Positions 6,759-39,837 of a DNA stretch of 39,837 nt are shown here, piece after piece. The stretch's first letter is position 1; each line of letters begins with the position of its first letter. Origin of the DNA: Gammaproteobacteria bacterium (GTDB lineage: Bacteria > Pseudomonadota > Gammaproteobacteria > VBWC01); contig JAHFRU010000022.1 of the NCBI GenBank assembly GCA_023266115.1, forward strand, positions 1 to 39,837. The letters run 5' to 3'. The position numbers were made by a program, and so were the translations under genes. The notes under the pieces are model-generated. The model worked only from the letters and a program-made list of their open reading frames with translations. It did not search any database and was not told the origin of the DNA.

Positions 6759-7087
6759 TCGGATTGCTCTCTTTCGATCTGTCGCACCAAGGCTGGCCGG
6801 TTAGATCCGTCATTCCGCTGACGCAGCGTGTTTTCGCTAACTGACGCCGAGCGGGCCACGTTGGAAATGCTTTCGCCAGCAGCGATGCGTCGGAGCAGTG
6901 CGAGCGCATCCGCATCCGAAACCTTGACGTTGCCACCGGCTTTAGGTGCACGGGATGGTTTGCGCGGGGTCGGCGGCAAGCTGTTGGCTAGCCGGCGAAG
7001 CGACGCACTGAACAGTGACCGCGTGGGCTCAACGTGGCCGAACACGCGATCAGAAGAACGACTACGCGACCTGCTTGTGCCGATCAT
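6755..7087 (-). CDS. Putative small HTH regulator downstream of cro
   Basis: This 110-aa protein starts at ATG 7087 in an ATGA overlap with cro. The N-terminal 55 residues are rich in Arg/Ser/Pro and probably disordered. The C-terminal part contains a resolvase-like helix-turn-helix: ALLRRIAAGESISNVARSAS then VSENTLRQR (about residues 66-95). Its place directly after cro is that of cII-type regulators in lambdoid phages. Sequence similarity to CII is not evident, so the role as a second early regulator is inference. Confidence 0.7.
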   Translation of the reverse strand: MIGTSRSRSRSSDRVFGHVEPTRSLFSASLRRLANSLPPTPRKPSRAPKAGGNVKVSDADALALLRRIAAGESISNVARSASVSENTLRQRNDGSNRPALVRQIEREQSE

Positions 7088-7305
7088 GCGGCGGCCCTCA
7101 GTAATGCCGCGATCCGTTCGGCGACCTCGCGCTTGTCGGTGGACGGCTCGCCGAATACATCCGGACGCAGCAGTTCGAGGAACTGGCGGCGCGCGTCGGG
7201 AATGCCGTTCTTGCGCCACTCGCTCACGCTGGGCGGCTTGATCTTGCAGATTTCGGCGACAGCGGATGTGCCGCCGAGCTTGTCGATGATTTCGGAGTCG
7301 TCCAT
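7084..7305 (-). CDS. cro: Cro-like regulator
   Basis: This 73-aa protein has an HTH at about residues 10-33 (LGGTSAVAEICKIKPPSVSE with recognition helix SVSEWRKNG). It then has the IPDARRQFLELLRPD stretch seen in many Cro/YdaS-type phage proteins. ATG 7305 is chosen. The frame is open further up, to a TTG at 7347, but that start lies upstream of the promoter. The -10 box (7317-7312) ends six bases before the ATG, so the mRNA appears leaderless. It is divergent from cI across three shared operators, and would favour lytic growth by repressing cI. Confidence 0.85.
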   Translation of the reverse strand: MDDSEIIDKLGGTSAVAEICKIKPPSVSEWRKNGIPDARRQFLELLRPDVFGEPSTDKREVAERIAALLRAAA

Positions 7306-7311
7306 GCGCGA

Positions 7312-7340
7312 AGCATAGGCATTTCTACACGCAGTGTCAA
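7312..7340 (-). promoter_or_regulatory. Early leftward promoter (cro operon)
   Basis: On the minus strand TTGACA (7340-7335), a 17-bp spacer and TATGCT (7317-7312) form a near-consensus sigma70 promoter. The upstream operator O2 abuts the -35 box and O1 overlaps the -10 box, so repressor binding would block it. The expected start point falls on or beside the cro ATG. Confidence 0.85.
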
Positions 7341-7377
7341 TAGGCATTCCTATGTTGCCAGCGCGTAGGCTTCCCTA
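7316..7377. promoter_or_regulatory. Operator cluster O1-O3 between cro and cI
   Basis: Three 12-bp sites of the form TAGG-N4-CCTA are spaced exactly 25 bp apart: O1 7316-7327 (taggcatttcta, one mismatch in the palindrome ends), O2 7341-7352 (taggcattccta) and O3 7366-7377 (taggcttcccta). O1 and O2 cover the cro promoter. O3 ends at the base before the cI ATG and covers its probable -10 box, which would give autorepression. Even spacing of about 2.4 helical turns suits cooperative dimers. Confidence 0.85.
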
Positions 7378-7378
7378 A
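7366..7378 (+). promoter_or_regulatory. Probable cI maintenance promoter (-10 region)
   Basis: TAGGCT at 7366-7371 lies six bases before the cI ATG (7378), the same geometry as the cro -10. No good -35 hexamer is visible 16-18 bp upstream, where operator O2 lies. That is what one expects of a promoter activated by repressor bound at O2. No Shine-Dalgarno sequence precedes the ATG, which fits a leaderless message as with lambda cI. Confidence 0.55.
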
Positions 7379-7728
7379 TGCTTCCGCCATGGGCCCAACG
7401 CATTGAAGACCTACTCCGGGCCGACCCAACCAAGTCGGCGGCGGGGCTCGCTCGCGCCTGCGGCATCAAGGGCGGATCGGTCAGTGGATGGTTCGGCAAA
7501 GGCAAGCCGACCAAGATGATTAGCGGCGACAACCTGGTGTCCGCCGCCGCGTATCTAGGCACCACCCCCGAATACATCATGACCGGACGGCAGAGCGCGA
7601 CGCCGAGCCAGTCTCACCCTGTGAACATGGATCTTGAGATGCTCAAGTCGTCCATCGTTAGCGTGAAAGAGGCCCTCCGCACCCTTGGCCTGGAGCTGGA
7701 TGCTTTTAAAGCTGGTGTTGGTAAGTGA
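7378..7728 (+). CDS. cI: CI-like repressor, short form
   Basis: This 116-aa protein has an N-terminal XRE/CI-type HTH (residues 7-66: IEDLLRADPTKSAAGLARAC and GIKGGSVSGWFGKGKPTKM, then AAYLGTTPEYIMTG). A short C-terminal coiled-coil-like helix follows (MDLEMLKSSIVSVKEALRTL). There is no LexA/S24 peptidase domain, so RecA-driven self-cleavage is not expected. It is divergent from cro, flanked on both sides by the operator clusters, and followed by a terminator at 7827. It most likely represses both early promoters and maintains lysogeny. Confidence 0.85.
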   Translation: MLPPWAQRIEDLLRADPTKSAAGLARACGIKGGSVSGWFGKGKPTKMISGDNLVSAAAYLGTTPEYIMTGRQSATPSQSHPVNMDLEMLKSSIVSVKEALRTLGLELDAFKAGVGK

Positions 7729-10334: not shown

Positions 10335-10477
10335 CCCACGACCTAGCCGACGCCGATCTGCGCTGCCTCCTACCGGCACTGATCGGCATGTTTCCAACCG
10401 TCACTCACGTCAAGACAGGTGACCCATCGCCTTCTGATCCTGGCGTGGGTGACGAACTTTTGAGGATGGAAGGATGA
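10331..10477 (+). CDS. Small phage protein, 48 aa
   Basis: GTG 10331 overlaps the upstream TGA, and TGA 10475-10477 overlaps the next ATG. The product contains LADADLRCLLPALIGMFPTV and an acidic tail. No domain is seen. It is supported mainly by coupling on both sides. Confidence 0.55.
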   Translation: MTHDLADADLRCLLPALIGMFPTVTHVKTGDPSPSDPGVGDELLRMEG

Positions 10478-10836
10478 GCAGTATTGACAAGCATCATCGC
10501 GAGTTGAACGAAATGGGCGAAGGCAAATGCTCAGCCCCGATGTGGATGCACGGTGGACCGGCTGGGTTCTGCGATAAGCCCGCATATGGGGAGCGCCCAC
10601 ACAGTCCGGAGCGTATGAACTATTGCAGCGGCAATATGCAGCGGGACGACAACCGGTACAACGGCTACGTTCCTGCACTTGCCTGCCCTGGTCATGGCGG
10701 ACCGCGCGTTCGCACATTCAAAGATGGCAACGCTTGGTGCGCGGTGCTGCCCGACTTCATCAACCTGCAAGAGAGTGAGGCTGGGTTTGGCGATACCAAG
10801 GATCAGGCGATAGCTGAACTAGGTGTGCGCCCGTAA
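10474..10836 (+). CDS. Hypothetical phage protein, 120 aa
   Basis: ATG 10474 is coupled to the upstream stop. Four cysteines (KCSAP, GFCDKPA, YCSG, ACPGHGG) with nearby histidines suggest metal binding in the first 75 residues. The C-terminus WCAVLPDFINLQESEAGFGD resembles a short HicB-like strand-helix end. No firm family. Confidence 0.72.
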   Translation: MSSIDKHHRELNEMGEGKCSAPMWMHGGPAGFCDKPAYGERPHSPERMNYCSGNMQRDDNRYNGYVPALACPGHGGPRVRTFKDGNAWCAVLPDFINLQESEAGFGDTKDQAIAELGVRP

Positions 10837-10889
10837 TTGCCCCGCTTAACCACCTTCAATAACGCCGGGATTCCGGCAAGGGATTCGAG

Positions 10890-11024
10890 ATGAACATGCG
10901 CACGTCAAAGCAAAAGGGATTCACGCTTGTTGATCTTCTCATTTCACTGTGGGGAATCTTTTGCATAGGAATTGTTGGCGCTTTTATGTGGGCGATATTC
11001 CACTTCATCGCCAAGTATTGGTGA
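10890..11024 (+). CDS. 44-aa membrane microprotein with type IV prepilin-like motif
   Basis: ATG 10890 lies behind aaggga at 10878-10883. The protein has a positively charged leader MNMRTSKQKG, then FTLVDLLISLWGIFCIGIVG and a further hydrophobic run ending HFIAKYW. A basic leader ending in Gly, Phe at +1, T-L-V, an acidic residue at +5 and then a long hydrophobic helix is the class III (prepilin peptidase) signal of type IV pilins. The normal Glu5 is replaced by Asp. It may be processed by PilD and enter or jam the pilus machine, or it may simply be a small membrane protein whose motif is chance. Confidence 0.7.
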   Translation: MNMRTSKQKGFTLVDLLISLWGIFCIGIVGAFMWAIFHFIAKYW

Positions 11025-11579: not shown

Positions 11580-11627
11580 CCCCATTCCAAGCACCGCGCC
11601 GGGCGGAATCCCGGCAGAGGATTTGAT

Positions 11628-11798
11628 ATGTCATGCGCACCTGAATTCGCCGAAGCACTGCGCCGCCAGCGCGCGGCATTCGCAGATCGCTACAAGGAGA
11701 GCCGGATGCTTGCTGAAACGGCGGCAGATGTCGATGCAATGTTCGCGGACGACGAGGCCGAGCCGATTACCAACTATGCCGAACGGCGTGGAGAGTGA
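11628..11798 (+). CDS. Small phage protein, 56 aa
   Basis: ATG 11628 follows ggcagaggattt, and TGA 11796-11798 lies one base before the annealing-protein ATG. The product is helical and charged (SCAPEFAEALRRQRAAFADR, then MLAETAADVDAMFADDEAEP). The function is unknown. Position suggests co-translation with the recombination genes. Confidence 0.65.
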   Translation: MSCAPEFAEALRRQRAAFADRYKESRMLAETAADVDAMFADDEAEPITNYAERRGE

Positions 11799-11799
11799 C

Positions 11800-12282
11800 A
11801 TGGAACTGACGCTGCAACAGAAACTGGAATGCCCGTTCCCGGCGAACGCCGTTTCATGGCGCATTGGCCGCAAGGCGAAGGACGACAAGACCGCCGCGTT
11901 GTTGGCCTACATCGACGCCCGCGACGTAATGGAGCGCCTTGACCGAGCATGCGGCTTCGAGAACTGGCAGTGCCGCTACACCATGGCCGACTCCGGCGTG
12001 CTGATCTGTGAGGTTGGAATCCGCATCAACGGCGAATGGTTGTGGCGCGCTAACGGCGCGGGCGATACGCAGGTGGAGGCCGAGAAGGGCAAGTGCAGCG
12101 ATGCGTTCAAGCGTGCCGCCGTGCTGTGGGGTGTTGGCCGCTACCTGTACGGACTTCCCTCGCCTCGCGTTGCCATCAACGATTTCGGCAAGTGGGAGAA
12201 AGACCCGCCGCTTCCGGTATGGGCGACGCCGAAGGGCTTCATGGATGCGCTCAAGGCCGAGCAAGAAAAGAGGGCCGCCTGA
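11800..12282 (+). CDS. Rad52/22-family single-strand annealing protein
   Basis: At 160 aa, the core reads ARDVMERLDRACGFENWQCR, then GEWLWRANGAGDTQVEAEKG and CSDAFKRAAVLWGVGRYLYG with LPSPRV. This is the Rad52/Rad22 superfamily pattern seen in phage annealing proteins. Such proteins coat single-stranded DNA and anneal complementary strands. The start is ATG 11800 and the stop overlaps the exonuclease start (TGATG), so annealase and nuclease form a Red-like pair. Confidence 0.9.
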   Translation: MELTLQQKLECPFPANAVSWRIGRKAKDDKTAALLAYIDARDVMERLDRACGFENWQCRYTMADSGVLICEVGIRINGEWLWRANGAGDTQVEAEKGKCSDAFKRAAVLWGVGRYLYGLPSPRVAINDFGKWEKDPPLPVWATPKGFMDALKAEQEKRAA

Positions 12283-13061
12283 TGAGCATGGATTCAGGCC
12301 ACTACTACCTGCGCGACGGCTCGCCGTGCTACGAGCAGCCAACCAAAGCTGGCGGAACGCGTGGCATCAACCTGCGCTGGGATCGACATCTTGGCCTCGT
12401 GCCGAGTGTGACAACTGTACTGCAGGTGCTGGCAAAACCGCAGCTGGAAATGTGGAAGGTTCGGCAGGGCATCCTTTCCGCGCTCACGCTGGTCCGCAAC
12501 GAAGGGGAATGCGACGACGACTATTTGGCCCGCGTGATGGCCGATTCCAAGGAGCAGGCGAAGGCCGCTGCCGAGGAAGGCACGCGCATCCACGACGCCA
12601 TCGAGCAGAGCTTCGTCGGCGGCAAGGTTCCTGAGCAGTACGTTCCTCATGTCAACGCCACTCGATTACTGATTTCCGAACTGTTCCCCGGCGTTTCGGA
12701 CTGGATCGCAGAGGATAGCTTTGCGCACCCATCCGGCTACGGCGGCAAGGTTGACTTGCATTCGCCGTCAACCGGCATCGTCATCGACTACAAGGGCAAG
12801 GACGGCGATTTCAGCGACAAGAAAAAGCTGGCGCATGACCAACACTACCAGCTGTCCGCCTACCAGTACGGGCTTGGCCTTGCGTCGAACGCCTGCGCAA
12901 ACATCTTCGTCTCGCGCACGCATCCGGGCTGCGTTGCTCACCACTTGTGGGCGACTGAAGAACTTGCTGATGGCCTAGGTATCTTCATGGATTCGCTGGC
13001 GCTGTGGAAGCGCCTGAAACACTACGACAGCTCATTCACCAACCAACAGCAGGCAGCATAA
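12282..13061 (+). CDS. PD-(D/E)XK recombination exonuclease
   Basis: This 259-aa protein shows the RecB-like nuclease signature: GTRIHDAIE near residues 100-108 (motif I His), YGGKVDLHSP (Asp158) and GIVIDYKGKD (Asp169, Lys171) forming the D-DxK metal site, then HDQHYQLSAYQYGL near 187 for the QxxxY motif. It probably resects linear duplex ends for the Rad52-like partner encoded just upstream. Coupling is TGATG. Length and order fit phage Red-type exonucleases. Confidence 0.9.
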   Translation: MSMDSGHYYLRDGSPCYEQPTKAGGTRGINLRWDRHLGLVPSVTTVLQVLAKPQLEMWKVRQGILSALTLVRNEGECDDDYLARVMADSKEQAKAAAEEGTRIHDAIEQSFVGGKVPEQYVPHVNATRLLISELFPGVSDWIAEDSFAHPSGYGGKVDLHSPSTGIVIDYKGKDGDFSDKKKLAHDQHYQLSAYQYGLGLASNACANIFVSRTHPGCVAHHLWATEELADGLGIFMDSLALWKRLKHYDSSFTNQQQAA

Positions 13062-16070: not shown

Positions 16071-16314
16071 AATGTCCGGCGCCAAGCTGTTAGCTGGCGG
16101 CCACGAAGCAGATGAAAATTGCTGCGAGTGGTATCAGGTCAATCAGTTGGAACACGACGCCGCCGCAGCCCACGCACTGATGATGGCGCAGGACGAATTC
16201 TGGAAGCAGGACGATCTAGGCAGTCTAGACGCACGCGATGCGGTCGAAATGATCGGAGTGCGCGCCGACGAACTCATGCAGCAATGGGGCTTCGATACTG
16301 GGGAGGGTACGTGA
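16054..16314 (+). CDS. Hypothetical phage protein, 86 aa
   Basis: ATG 16054 lies behind caaggagctggcg, a strong ribosome-binding site inside the previous gene. It is an acidic helical protein with NQLEHDAAAAHALMMAQDEF and LDARDAVEMIGVRADELMQQ. The TGA at 16312-16314 shares its last base with the ATG of the chimeric ORF. No family is recognised. Confidence 0.65.
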   Translation: MKLLTEMSGAKLLAGGHEADENCCEWYQVNQLEHDAAAAHALMMAQDEFWKQDDLGSLDARDAVEMIGVRADELMQQWGFDTGEGT

Positions 16315-16490
16315 TGAGCGACGTAATGCTGTTTGGTGTGTTGCGCATGCCCTACGAAATGGCGATGAGTTCCGAATTATCGCGGCGGCAGTTCTATGTG
16401 CGCGCCCAAGAGCTGCTCGGGCACACCGATGCGCGGGTGACGAAACGTCACTATCATGTCCGCGCCGACGCGGCGCAGCCGGTCAAATAG
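16314..16490 (+). pseudogene. Chimeric ORF: small phage protein N-terminus fused to a tyrosine integrase C-terminus
   Basis: This 58-aa ORF has two dissimilar parts. Residues 1-33 (DVMLFGVLRMPYEMAMSSEL then SRRQFYVRAQE) look like the start of a small phage early protein. From residue 34, LLGHTDARVTKRHYHV with a final AAQPVK is the tail of a tyrosine recombinase: the LGH box and, in HYH, the likely catalytic tyrosine. The upstream Arg/Lys/His parts of an integrase are nowhere nearby. Its stop lies 42 bp from the attP core, as for an intact int gene. The simplest reading is a deletion that removed most of int. Confidence 0.75.
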
Positions 16491-24147: not shown

Positions 24148-24879
24148 TCAGTTCTCCTTGCCGGCGACTGCGCGGCGAATGGCGATCATCTGGAGCGCCA
24201 TGTCGCGGCATTCCTCCAGCGTCAACTTGCGGTGTTCCTTCGTGCCGGCCCCCGGATGCACCTGCATCGAGGCGAGCGACGCGAAATACATGTCGAACGG
24301 GATGCGCTCGTCGGGCTGCAACATAGGTCGGTCTCTCCGAACGCAGACGATCAGCGTGATGCGCGGCGCGTCGCTGTCATTGGTCACCCAGTGCAGGAGC
24401 GAGTTGTCGAAGGTGTAGAGGTCGCCCGGGAGGGGGCGCAGCTCGGCATCCTCGAAACAGAACGCCTGTTGTTCATCGCCGGCGATCTGCACCGCGAACT
24501 TTTCGTAGTAGCCGGCATGCCAGCCCGTATCGACGTGCGGAGCCACGCTGCCACCCGGAGGAATGCGCGTGATCAGTACGCCGCCCAGCCGCTTACCGCC
24601 CACGTCACGCATGACCTTGCGCGCCAACGACCACGCCGCCGGCAGATCGGCGATGACCGGATACCAGCTCGATTCGTGCTCCGCGTTGAACGCCTGCACG
24701 TCGCCGGTAAAGTTCGCCCAGGCGTTGTAACGCACCCAGATGTCATCGACGGACTTGTGCGGGGTCTGGTAGGCATCCGTGCGCATCGTGTGCCGGTTCC
24801 ACGCCTCCGGGTGCGCGTCCAACTGCGCGGCCAGAGGCGCCACGTCGTAGCCGCTGGCGAGGTGGCGAATGCTGCTCAT
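24148..24879 (-). CDS. Aspartyl/asparaginyl beta-hydroxylase-like 2-oxoglutarate oxygenase
   Basis: At 243 aa, the double-stranded beta-helix core shows the Fe(II) site His115-Val-Asp117 (SVAPHVDTGW), a distal His163 in NSLLHWVTNDSD, and Arg173 for 2-oxoglutarate (APRITLIVCV). LPGDLYTFDN lies between, as in the AspH family. These enzymes hydroxylate Asp, Asn or Pro in proteins. The gene lies between the gp10-like and gp7-like genes, inside the virion cassette, so a virion or host surface protein is a plausible substrate. That part is inference. Confidence 0.88.
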   Translation of the reverse strand: MSSIRHLASGYDVAPLAAQLDAHPEAWNRHTMRTDAYQTPHKSVDDIWVRYNAWANFTGDVQAFNAEHESSWYPVIADLPAAWSLARKVMRDVGGKRLGGVLITRIPPGGSVAPHVDTGWHAGYYEKFAVQIAGDEQQAFCFEDAELRPLPGDLYTFDNSLLHWVTNDSDAPRITLIVCVRRDRPMLQPDERIPFDMYFASLASMQVHPGAGTKEHRKLTLEECRDMALQMIAIRRAVAGKEN

Positions 24880-39413: not shown

Positions 39414-39837
39414 AGTCGATCCTCCGGTGTCCGTTCGTCAGCCATACGCAAGGCTTCGGCGTTGGCTGGGTGTTGCGAAGTGGCAACAGTTGTTGCGGTT
39501 TCGGCAACATGTCGCGGCTCGACGTCGCCGATGCCGAAGCCCTTCAGCTCCTCGGCAGTCAGCACCTCGCGCAAACCGTCAACCTCGGTTGGCGTGGCGA
39601 TGCGGGAACCCTGCCTGAGCAGGTAGGCAGATTCGGCGGGGATGCCCTGTCCGGCCAGCCATTGCGGCGACCATTTCGGCGGGGCGTTGACGTGCACAGG
39701 TTCCGGCATTTCCTCGACACGTTTGCCGGATGTGTACGTGAAAGCCTCTTTCAGCAACAGATGCGCGTGATACAGATACTGCATCGCCGTGCGGACTTTC
39801 GACTCAACATCACTGACCGGATCGAGCTTCGCGTCCT
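39410..39837 (-). CDS. Hypothetical phage protein, C-terminal part (gene crosses the contig junction)
   Basis: This frame runs in from the right end of the contig and stops at 39410. With bases 1-211 it makes one 172-aa protein; the copy here repeats 40 codons of the left piece because of the terminal repeat. The C-terminal half includes KWSPQWLAGQGIPAESAYLL and LREVLTAEELKGFGIGDVEP. The function is unknown. The stop overlaps the GTG of the 26-aa membrane protein. Confidence 0.8.
   Translation of the reverse strand, partial: DAKLDPVSDVESKVRTAMQYLYHAHLLLKEAFTYTSGKRVEEMPEPVHVNAPPKWSPQWLAGQGIPAESAYLLRQGSRIATPTEVDGLREVLTAEELKGFGIGDVEPRHVAETATTVATSQHPANAEALRMADERTPEDRL
39718..39837. repeat. Right copy of the 120-bp terminal direct repeat
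   Basis: Exact copy of bases 1-120. Joining the two copies closes the genome at 39,717 bp and restores a 172-codon minus-strand gene (211 down to 1, then 39717 down to 39410). Confidence 0.95.

Follow-up and report, generated by a model that had tools for sequence, protein, structure and literature searches.

The idea that phage proteins disarm host pili is well established, and some of the described systems closest to our locus are of this sort. PfsE (PA0721), from the Pseudomonas filamentous phage Pf4, is a protein of only 30 amino acids with its N-terminus inside, which blocks pili by binding PilC, loses its activity when tagged at the C-terminus, and whose YxWGW motif contains critical aromatic residues (PMC8764522). 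Tip (from D3112) and Aqs1 (from DMS3) inhibit the pilus ATPase PilB, and the resulting shutdown of pili serves exclusion (PMC8764522, PMC11436027).

Type IV pilins and class III signal proteins (PF07963, TIGR02532) offer another term of comparison, with their basic leader, Gly at −1, aromatic residue at +1, Thr at +2, acidic residue at +5 and hydrophobic N-terminal helix. Among the shortest pilins with solved structures, the Geobacter geopilin PDB chains are about 61–90 residues long. Prepilin boxes are also found in small phage proteins, such as Nankokuvirus KPP10 gp132, KVP40.0030, a cyanophage 'pilin' and a marine family ending in TQLCTYN, which have a soluble tail or a different C-terminus from that described below; none of the short ones listed ends in HFxxKxW.

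The window analysed here, a stretch of DNA of 39,837 nucleotides that makes up its entire contig, begins and ends with a perfect direct repeat of 120 nt (1–120 and 39718–39837), so it is a phage genome closed into a circle of about 39,717 bp. It carries genes for portal, terminase, major head, head-closure and DNA-ejection proteins and for a lysozyme, and corresponds to a P22-like, probably temperate phage. As stated in a preliminary description of this DNA, it contains a phage ORF at 10890–11024 on the plus strand encoding a protein of 44 amino acids, MNMRTSKQKGFTLVDLLISLWGIFCIGIVGAFMWAIFHFIAKYW. Its basic leader MNMRTSKQKG (10890–10919), devoid of acidic residues, is predicted to be removed by a prepilin peptidase after Gly10 (−1), and is followed by the box F-T-L-V-D-L (10920–10937), with Phe at +1, Thr at +2 and Asp at +5, and by a hydrophobic helix. 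The predicted mature product, a helix of 34 residues (10920–11021), finishes with W-A-I-F-H-F-I-A-K-Y-W-stop (10989–11021), that is, with an HFxxKxW signature preceded by an aromatic residue at −4 from the His. AlphaFold2 modelled the window protein as one helix spanning residues 13–43 (mean pLDDT 90).

The window protein thus shares with pilins the whole arrangement of leader, junction and helix. In contrast to them, however, its mature part stops at the end of the helix, at the membrane, with the HFxxK[FY]W C-terminus and no periplasmic domain beyond; the mature part of its relatives with a box has 30–41 residues. It also differs from Tip and Aqs1, whose target is PilB and which are not known to be single-helix membrane peptides. 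PfsE resembles the window protein, itself a phage microprotein predicted to lie in the inner membrane with its N-terminus inside and to need a free C-terminus, although as an analogue and not as a relative: the window protein lacks YxWGW, and the PfsE paper gives no hint of a prepilin box or of HFxxKxW.

The start codon of the gene is supported by its translation-initiation leader, CCGGCARRGGATTYGANATG (10873–10892, plus strand), because this sequence recurs only at 11611–11630, before an ORF of 56 codons (11628–11798, plus strand); these are the only two copies in the window, with 0.07 expected. There is a small GCCGG..CCGGC hairpin at the 5' end of the leader, and RNA folding of 10873–10892 did not yield a stability above that of shuffled sequences.

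On its own, the window protein matches the Pfam N_methyl model below threshold (E = 0.0047, 16.9 bits, for a cut-off of 21.2 bits). The prepilin junction is nevertheless secure, because its best relatives score above the Pfam cut-off, 21 of 29 relatives with a box match TIGR02532 at E ≤ 1, and a profile built from these relatives retrieves pilins from the PDB, with MshA as the best hit (E = 1.3e-5). Within the family defined below, the complete box, G/(F,Y,I,W,A)-T-x-x-(E/D), is present in 35 of 163 non-redundant members, as compared to a mean of 0.26 and a maximum of 3 in 1000 shuffles. This pattern was searched as G[FYIWAMLV]T..[ED] near the N-terminus, so that Gly(−1), Thr(+2) and the acidic +5 are required by definition. 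The prepilin-like junction of the preliminary description is thus real, including its Asp at +5, which is unique to the window copy because the other 34 members with a box have Glu. The conservation that it asked about for G-F-T-L-V-(D/E) holds for Gly(−1), Thr(+2) and the acidic +5, and does not extend to +1, +3 and +4, which vary among members with a box (GITAIEI, GATLIEL, GFTLPEV). Two further members (L113 and L165/L395) have TLIE without Gly(−1). The predicted mature length is 34 residues in 22 of the 35 members with a box, including the window protein, 30–31 in eight, 38 in three, and 41 and 35 in one each. In a post hoc comparison that assumes some ten independent length changes, these lengths lie near multiples of a full helical turn (mean cosine of 0.58, with p about 0.001 by simulation).

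The preliminary description overlooked the C-terminal HFIAKYW, which is more widely conserved across relatives than the prepilin box. By its sequence, the window protein belongs to a large virus-specific family of single-helix microproteins ending in [Y/W]xxxHF[IV]xK[F/Y]W, since it has HFIAKYW-stop after the helix and Trp at −4. Tblastn with the window protein retrieved two named relatives, in unrelated phages: MKNMKQTGFTLIEMIFAIFGLASLIGAGFGVYAIVHFVTKYW from Aeromonas phage Ahp1_CNU-2021 (Straboviridae) and MKRAKGFTLIELIFCILALGLLGGGGYVVIHFIAKFW from Aeromonas phage vB_AdhS_TS3 (Demerecviridae), both with a box and with the same last seven residues as the window protein. Ten more relatives came from viral contigs, nine of them ending in the C-terminal motif. 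Searches of viral contigs with codon patterns of HF[IV]xK[YF]W plus a stop produced 86 stretches with one pattern and at least 120 with another and, among the matches listed, most were short ORFs with a hydrophobic helix directly before the motif. In all, the family comprises at least 163 non-redundant members, a lower bound because the patterns represented a subset of the possible codons and residues and, for some scans, the counts are of the matches listed. One sequence (L028) with the box and without the C-terminal motif was left out of this set. Members occur in P22-like, T4-like, T5-like and N4-like phages, and two viral contigs (L098 and L398) each contain two different HFxxK[FY]W members.

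The position of the motif at the very end of the protein does not derive from the search. In a scan for HFIxKFW without a stop requirement, run to remove stop bias, a stop follows the Trp immediately in 56 of 58 copies preceded by a helix (26 TAA, 19 TGA and 11 TAG), versus 4 of 40 other copies. The invariance of HFxxKxW is partly an artefact of selection, but the aromatic residue at −4 (76% of members with a box and 66% of those without it, for a background of 7–10%) and the Val, Ile or Ala at −3, also common to both sets, were not selected for, and unite members with and without a box. Among closely related copies, pN/pS is 0.38 for members with a box and 0.19 for those without it, which is indicative of purifying selection.

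A pattern of this kind retrieved 83 matches from 257 Gb of cellular genomes, nearly all in random contexts and with only about four plausible members, including copies in Paraburkholderia panacisoli (L311) and in a Chitinophagales genome (L303). Because of this scarcity, we consider the family essentially viral. Likewise, a search of plasmids found no members. Megablast of the region retrieved scraps of 43–46 nt in Pseudomonas phages and nothing longer; tblastn with several members lacking the box yielded nothing or scraps with E around 10, and with two consensus queries it retrieved named N4-like phages.

The box is absent from 128 of the 163 members (79%), which keep the helix and the C-terminus and whose start codons were set by rule. 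For instance, members without a box are annotated in two N4-like phages: gene 12 of Stenotrophomonas phage C121 (MTFRTVFIMWLVWVAIILSVAGAGLYVAWHFISKFW), which adjoins a gene for a single-stranded DNA-binding protein, and gp61 of Alcaligenes phage QDWS595 (MKYFMAIVVLAWFLVVVGLSYTAIHFIIKFW), upstream of RNA polymerase 1. A syntenic group near genes for Erf and an exonuclease includes seven members with a box and one without it (L074), which indicates that loss or gain of the box can leave the C-terminus unchanged. In L074 the start of the gene, near position 7708 on the minus strand, overlaps by GTGA the last codons of a preceding frame for an XRE-type HTH repressor-like protein, an arrangement that suggests translational coupling.

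In a comparison of the box with host PilD that comprises two points only, the Paraburkholderia host of L311, which has the box, contains PF01478, and the Chitinophagales genome with L303, without the box, has no detectable PF01478/PilD. Using base composition as a crude proxy for the host, and after removal of redundancy, members with and without a box did not differ significantly (p 0.24–0.32). The net charge of the N-terminal flank averages +1.7 with the box and +0.9 without it, and is zero or negative in 48 of the 128 members lacking the box.

The microprotein gene lies on the strand of a helix-turn-helix repressor-like gene located upstream (7378–7728, plus strand), identified by inspection, without a Pfam match and C1-like by its position. 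A P22 Cro-like regulator (7084–7347, minus strand; PF14549, E = 3e-6, just under the curated cut-off) is divergent from the microprotein operon. The microprotein gene is situated between small unknown genes, including a co-directional hypothetical gene of 120 codons without a Pfam match (10474–10836, plus strand), and the genes for an Erf-like single-strand annealing protein (11800–12282, plus strand; phrog_1097, E = 6e-45) and a phage exonuclease of the recombination module (12282–13061, plus strand; phrog_298, E = 3.4e-10), both with inferred starts. The equivalent position in lambdoid phages is occupied by the left early operon. Elsewhere in the family, the mostly co-directional neighbours include genes for primase, Erf, NinG/Rap, RecE-like exonuclease, methyltransferase and terminase, and in N4-like phages the member either precedes RNA polymerase 1, within the early block, or adjoins the single-stranded DNA-binding protein gene. 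Members thus usually lie among early genes. A group of AT-rich members without a box, with 25 syntenic loci, has an endolysin-like gene 1.6–1.9 kb upstream in five loci and a terminase gene downstream in others. Elsewhere in the window, a short ORF at 16314–16490 (plus strand) ending in LLGHTDARVTKRHYHVRADAAQPVK resembles the C-terminus of a tyrosine integrase, perhaps as an attachment-site fragment, and there is an aspartyl/asparaginyl beta-hydroxylase-like gene (24148–24879, minus strand; PF05118, E = 3.8e-7) within the structural gene block.

The host genome of the window encodes a single prepilin peptidase (PilD, PF01478), and it is thus possible for the window protein to be processed. It also contains PilB/PilC/PilT and type II secretion system genes, with four type II secretion-F/PilC domain matches, two in each of two proteins, and three PilT-family ATPases above cut-off, as well as 13 prepilin-like proteins above cut-off.

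The reading that we favour, to which we nonetheless give only even chances, is that the window protein is an early inner-membrane effector from a virus-specific family, of which the branch with a box is matured through the pilin pathway. The family itself, its strict C-terminal motif, the conserved box, the virus specificity, the early context and the PilD and pilus genes of the host all support it. The working part common to the family would be one transmembrane helix with a free C-terminus, [Y/W]xxxHF[IV]xK[F/Y]W. The N-terminus would very probably be inside and the C-terminal motif on the periplasmic side, as implied by the net positive N-terminal flanks and by the box. There, the motif would engage a conserved target in the envelope or the membrane, leading to superinfection exclusion or host takeover, roles for which and against which we see about equal reason. 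This target must be independent of pilin processing, because most relatives lack the box. In the case of the window protein, established prepilin biology makes it likely that PilD cuts after Gly10; it would probably also methylate Phe11, leaving a pilin-like helix of 34 residues with HFIAKYW at the periplasmic face. The mature helix could then enter the pilin pathway, either of the type IV pilus or of the type II secretion platform, and exert its effect there or from there; that one of these machines is the actual target of the branch with a box is a tentative proposal, which we lean against. A fuller version, in which a very widespread, virus-only family carries the C-terminal address YVxxHFIxKFW for one conserved bacterial membrane target and the branch matured by PilD consists of chain-ending mini-pilins, seems to us unlikely as a whole. 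Type IV pili are expected in Stenotrophomonas, and the absence of the box from a member in a phage of this genus, as from 79% of the family, counts against the favoured reading. So do the lack of a significant link between the box and base composition, the endolysin-like and terminase neighbours of the AT-rich group and the absence of a constant partner gene; the topology, for its part, is argued from charge, and 48 of the 128 members lacking the box do not have a positive flank.

The same distribution bears on the proposal of the preliminary description that the pilus is the reason for this protein, which as stated is not supported: members without a box occur in phages of both Stenotrophomonas and Alcaligenes, and one belongs to a Chitinophagales genome without detectable PilD. 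In its strict form, a minimal pilin processed by PilD would cap or jam the type IV pilus or the type II platform and exclude pilus-dependent phages, the relatives without a box being derived or functionally unrelated. The retention of a complete box across divergent members, the coexistence of PilD, pilus and secretion machines in the host, the post hoc constraint on helical phase from the box to the C-terminus and the precedent in kind of PfsE (PMC8764522) speak for such a dedicated poison. Most members, however, lack the box and keep the rest of the protein, and the box is replaced at one syntenic locus (L074); with no PilD detectable in the genome of L303 as well, we regard this explanation as rather improbable. 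Homologues keeping the helix without the junction, which the preliminary description considered a refutation, do exist, and in part refute the proposal: a target in the pilus alone does not explain the family. It could be argued conversely that the box serves only for membrane targeting or insertion, or is convergent, without useful processing by PilD, and that the C-terminal motif acts alone. The looseness of +1, +3 and +4, the Asp at +5 unique to the window copy and the Pfam score under the cut-off agree with this, but Gly(−1), Thr(+2) and the acidic +5 occur together 35 times versus 0.26 expected. Membrane insertion alone does not need an acidic +5; that this residue has been kept speaks for the pilin pathway, so we consider a mere targeting role quite improbable.

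A modulator of lysis, in the form of an antiholin, a pinholin-like helix or a lysis-timing peptide, would also be a single short helix, and the AT-rich group, with its endolysin-like and terminase neighbours, also fits a lysis or late role. In the window, though, the lysozyme gene is 25 kb away on the opposite strand, and the contexts of the family are mostly early or recombination genes, so that we give this possibility little credence. Only size and hydrophobicity would suggest a small membrane toxin, similar to those of type I systems, or a decayed host pilin captured by a phage. We did not find a constant partner gene among the neighbours examined across family loci, as would suit a toxin, and the near absence of the C-terminal motif from cellular genomes and the purifying selection on copies disagree with a captured pilin; both ideas are hardly credible.

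No entry describing the family was found in Pfam, PHROGs, NCBIfam or the PDB. In members with a box, it is the box that matches prepilin-type models and unnamed PHROGs, and 54 members without it gave only isolated weak matches to PHROGs or Pfam, and no PDB match below E = 0.16. A match to YmiA-like proteins (PF22868) was too weak (E = 0.27) and was dropped. The absence from family libraries is probably due to the genes having 25–50 codons and often being unannotated. Likewise, the family was not described in the literature on phage prepilins and phage-encoded pilins covered by our search, mostly outside subscription journals, and we rate it as new. Its motif, fixed in more than 160 microproteins of unrelated phage lineages and nearly absent from cells, must serve a common phage need, and knowing what HFxxK[FY]W acts on could expose a conserved weak point of the membrane. 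The branch with a box provides a clean test of the exploitation of prepilin peptidase by phages; in the fuller version outlined above, PilD would process viral proteins that serve exclusion or the takeover of the host.

Our searches also retrieved other prepilin-box proteins of small size from phages. Six of them (L404, L432, L443, L468, L488 and L517) form a second family of microproteins, with a mature part of about 61 amino acids and ending like SKQSCLSQGGKWTEGYERGRMTQLCTYN. Another four (L409, L450, L471 and L504), without HFxxKxW, are extremely short, nearly a box and a helix alone, with 26–28 residues counted from the Lys that precedes the box.
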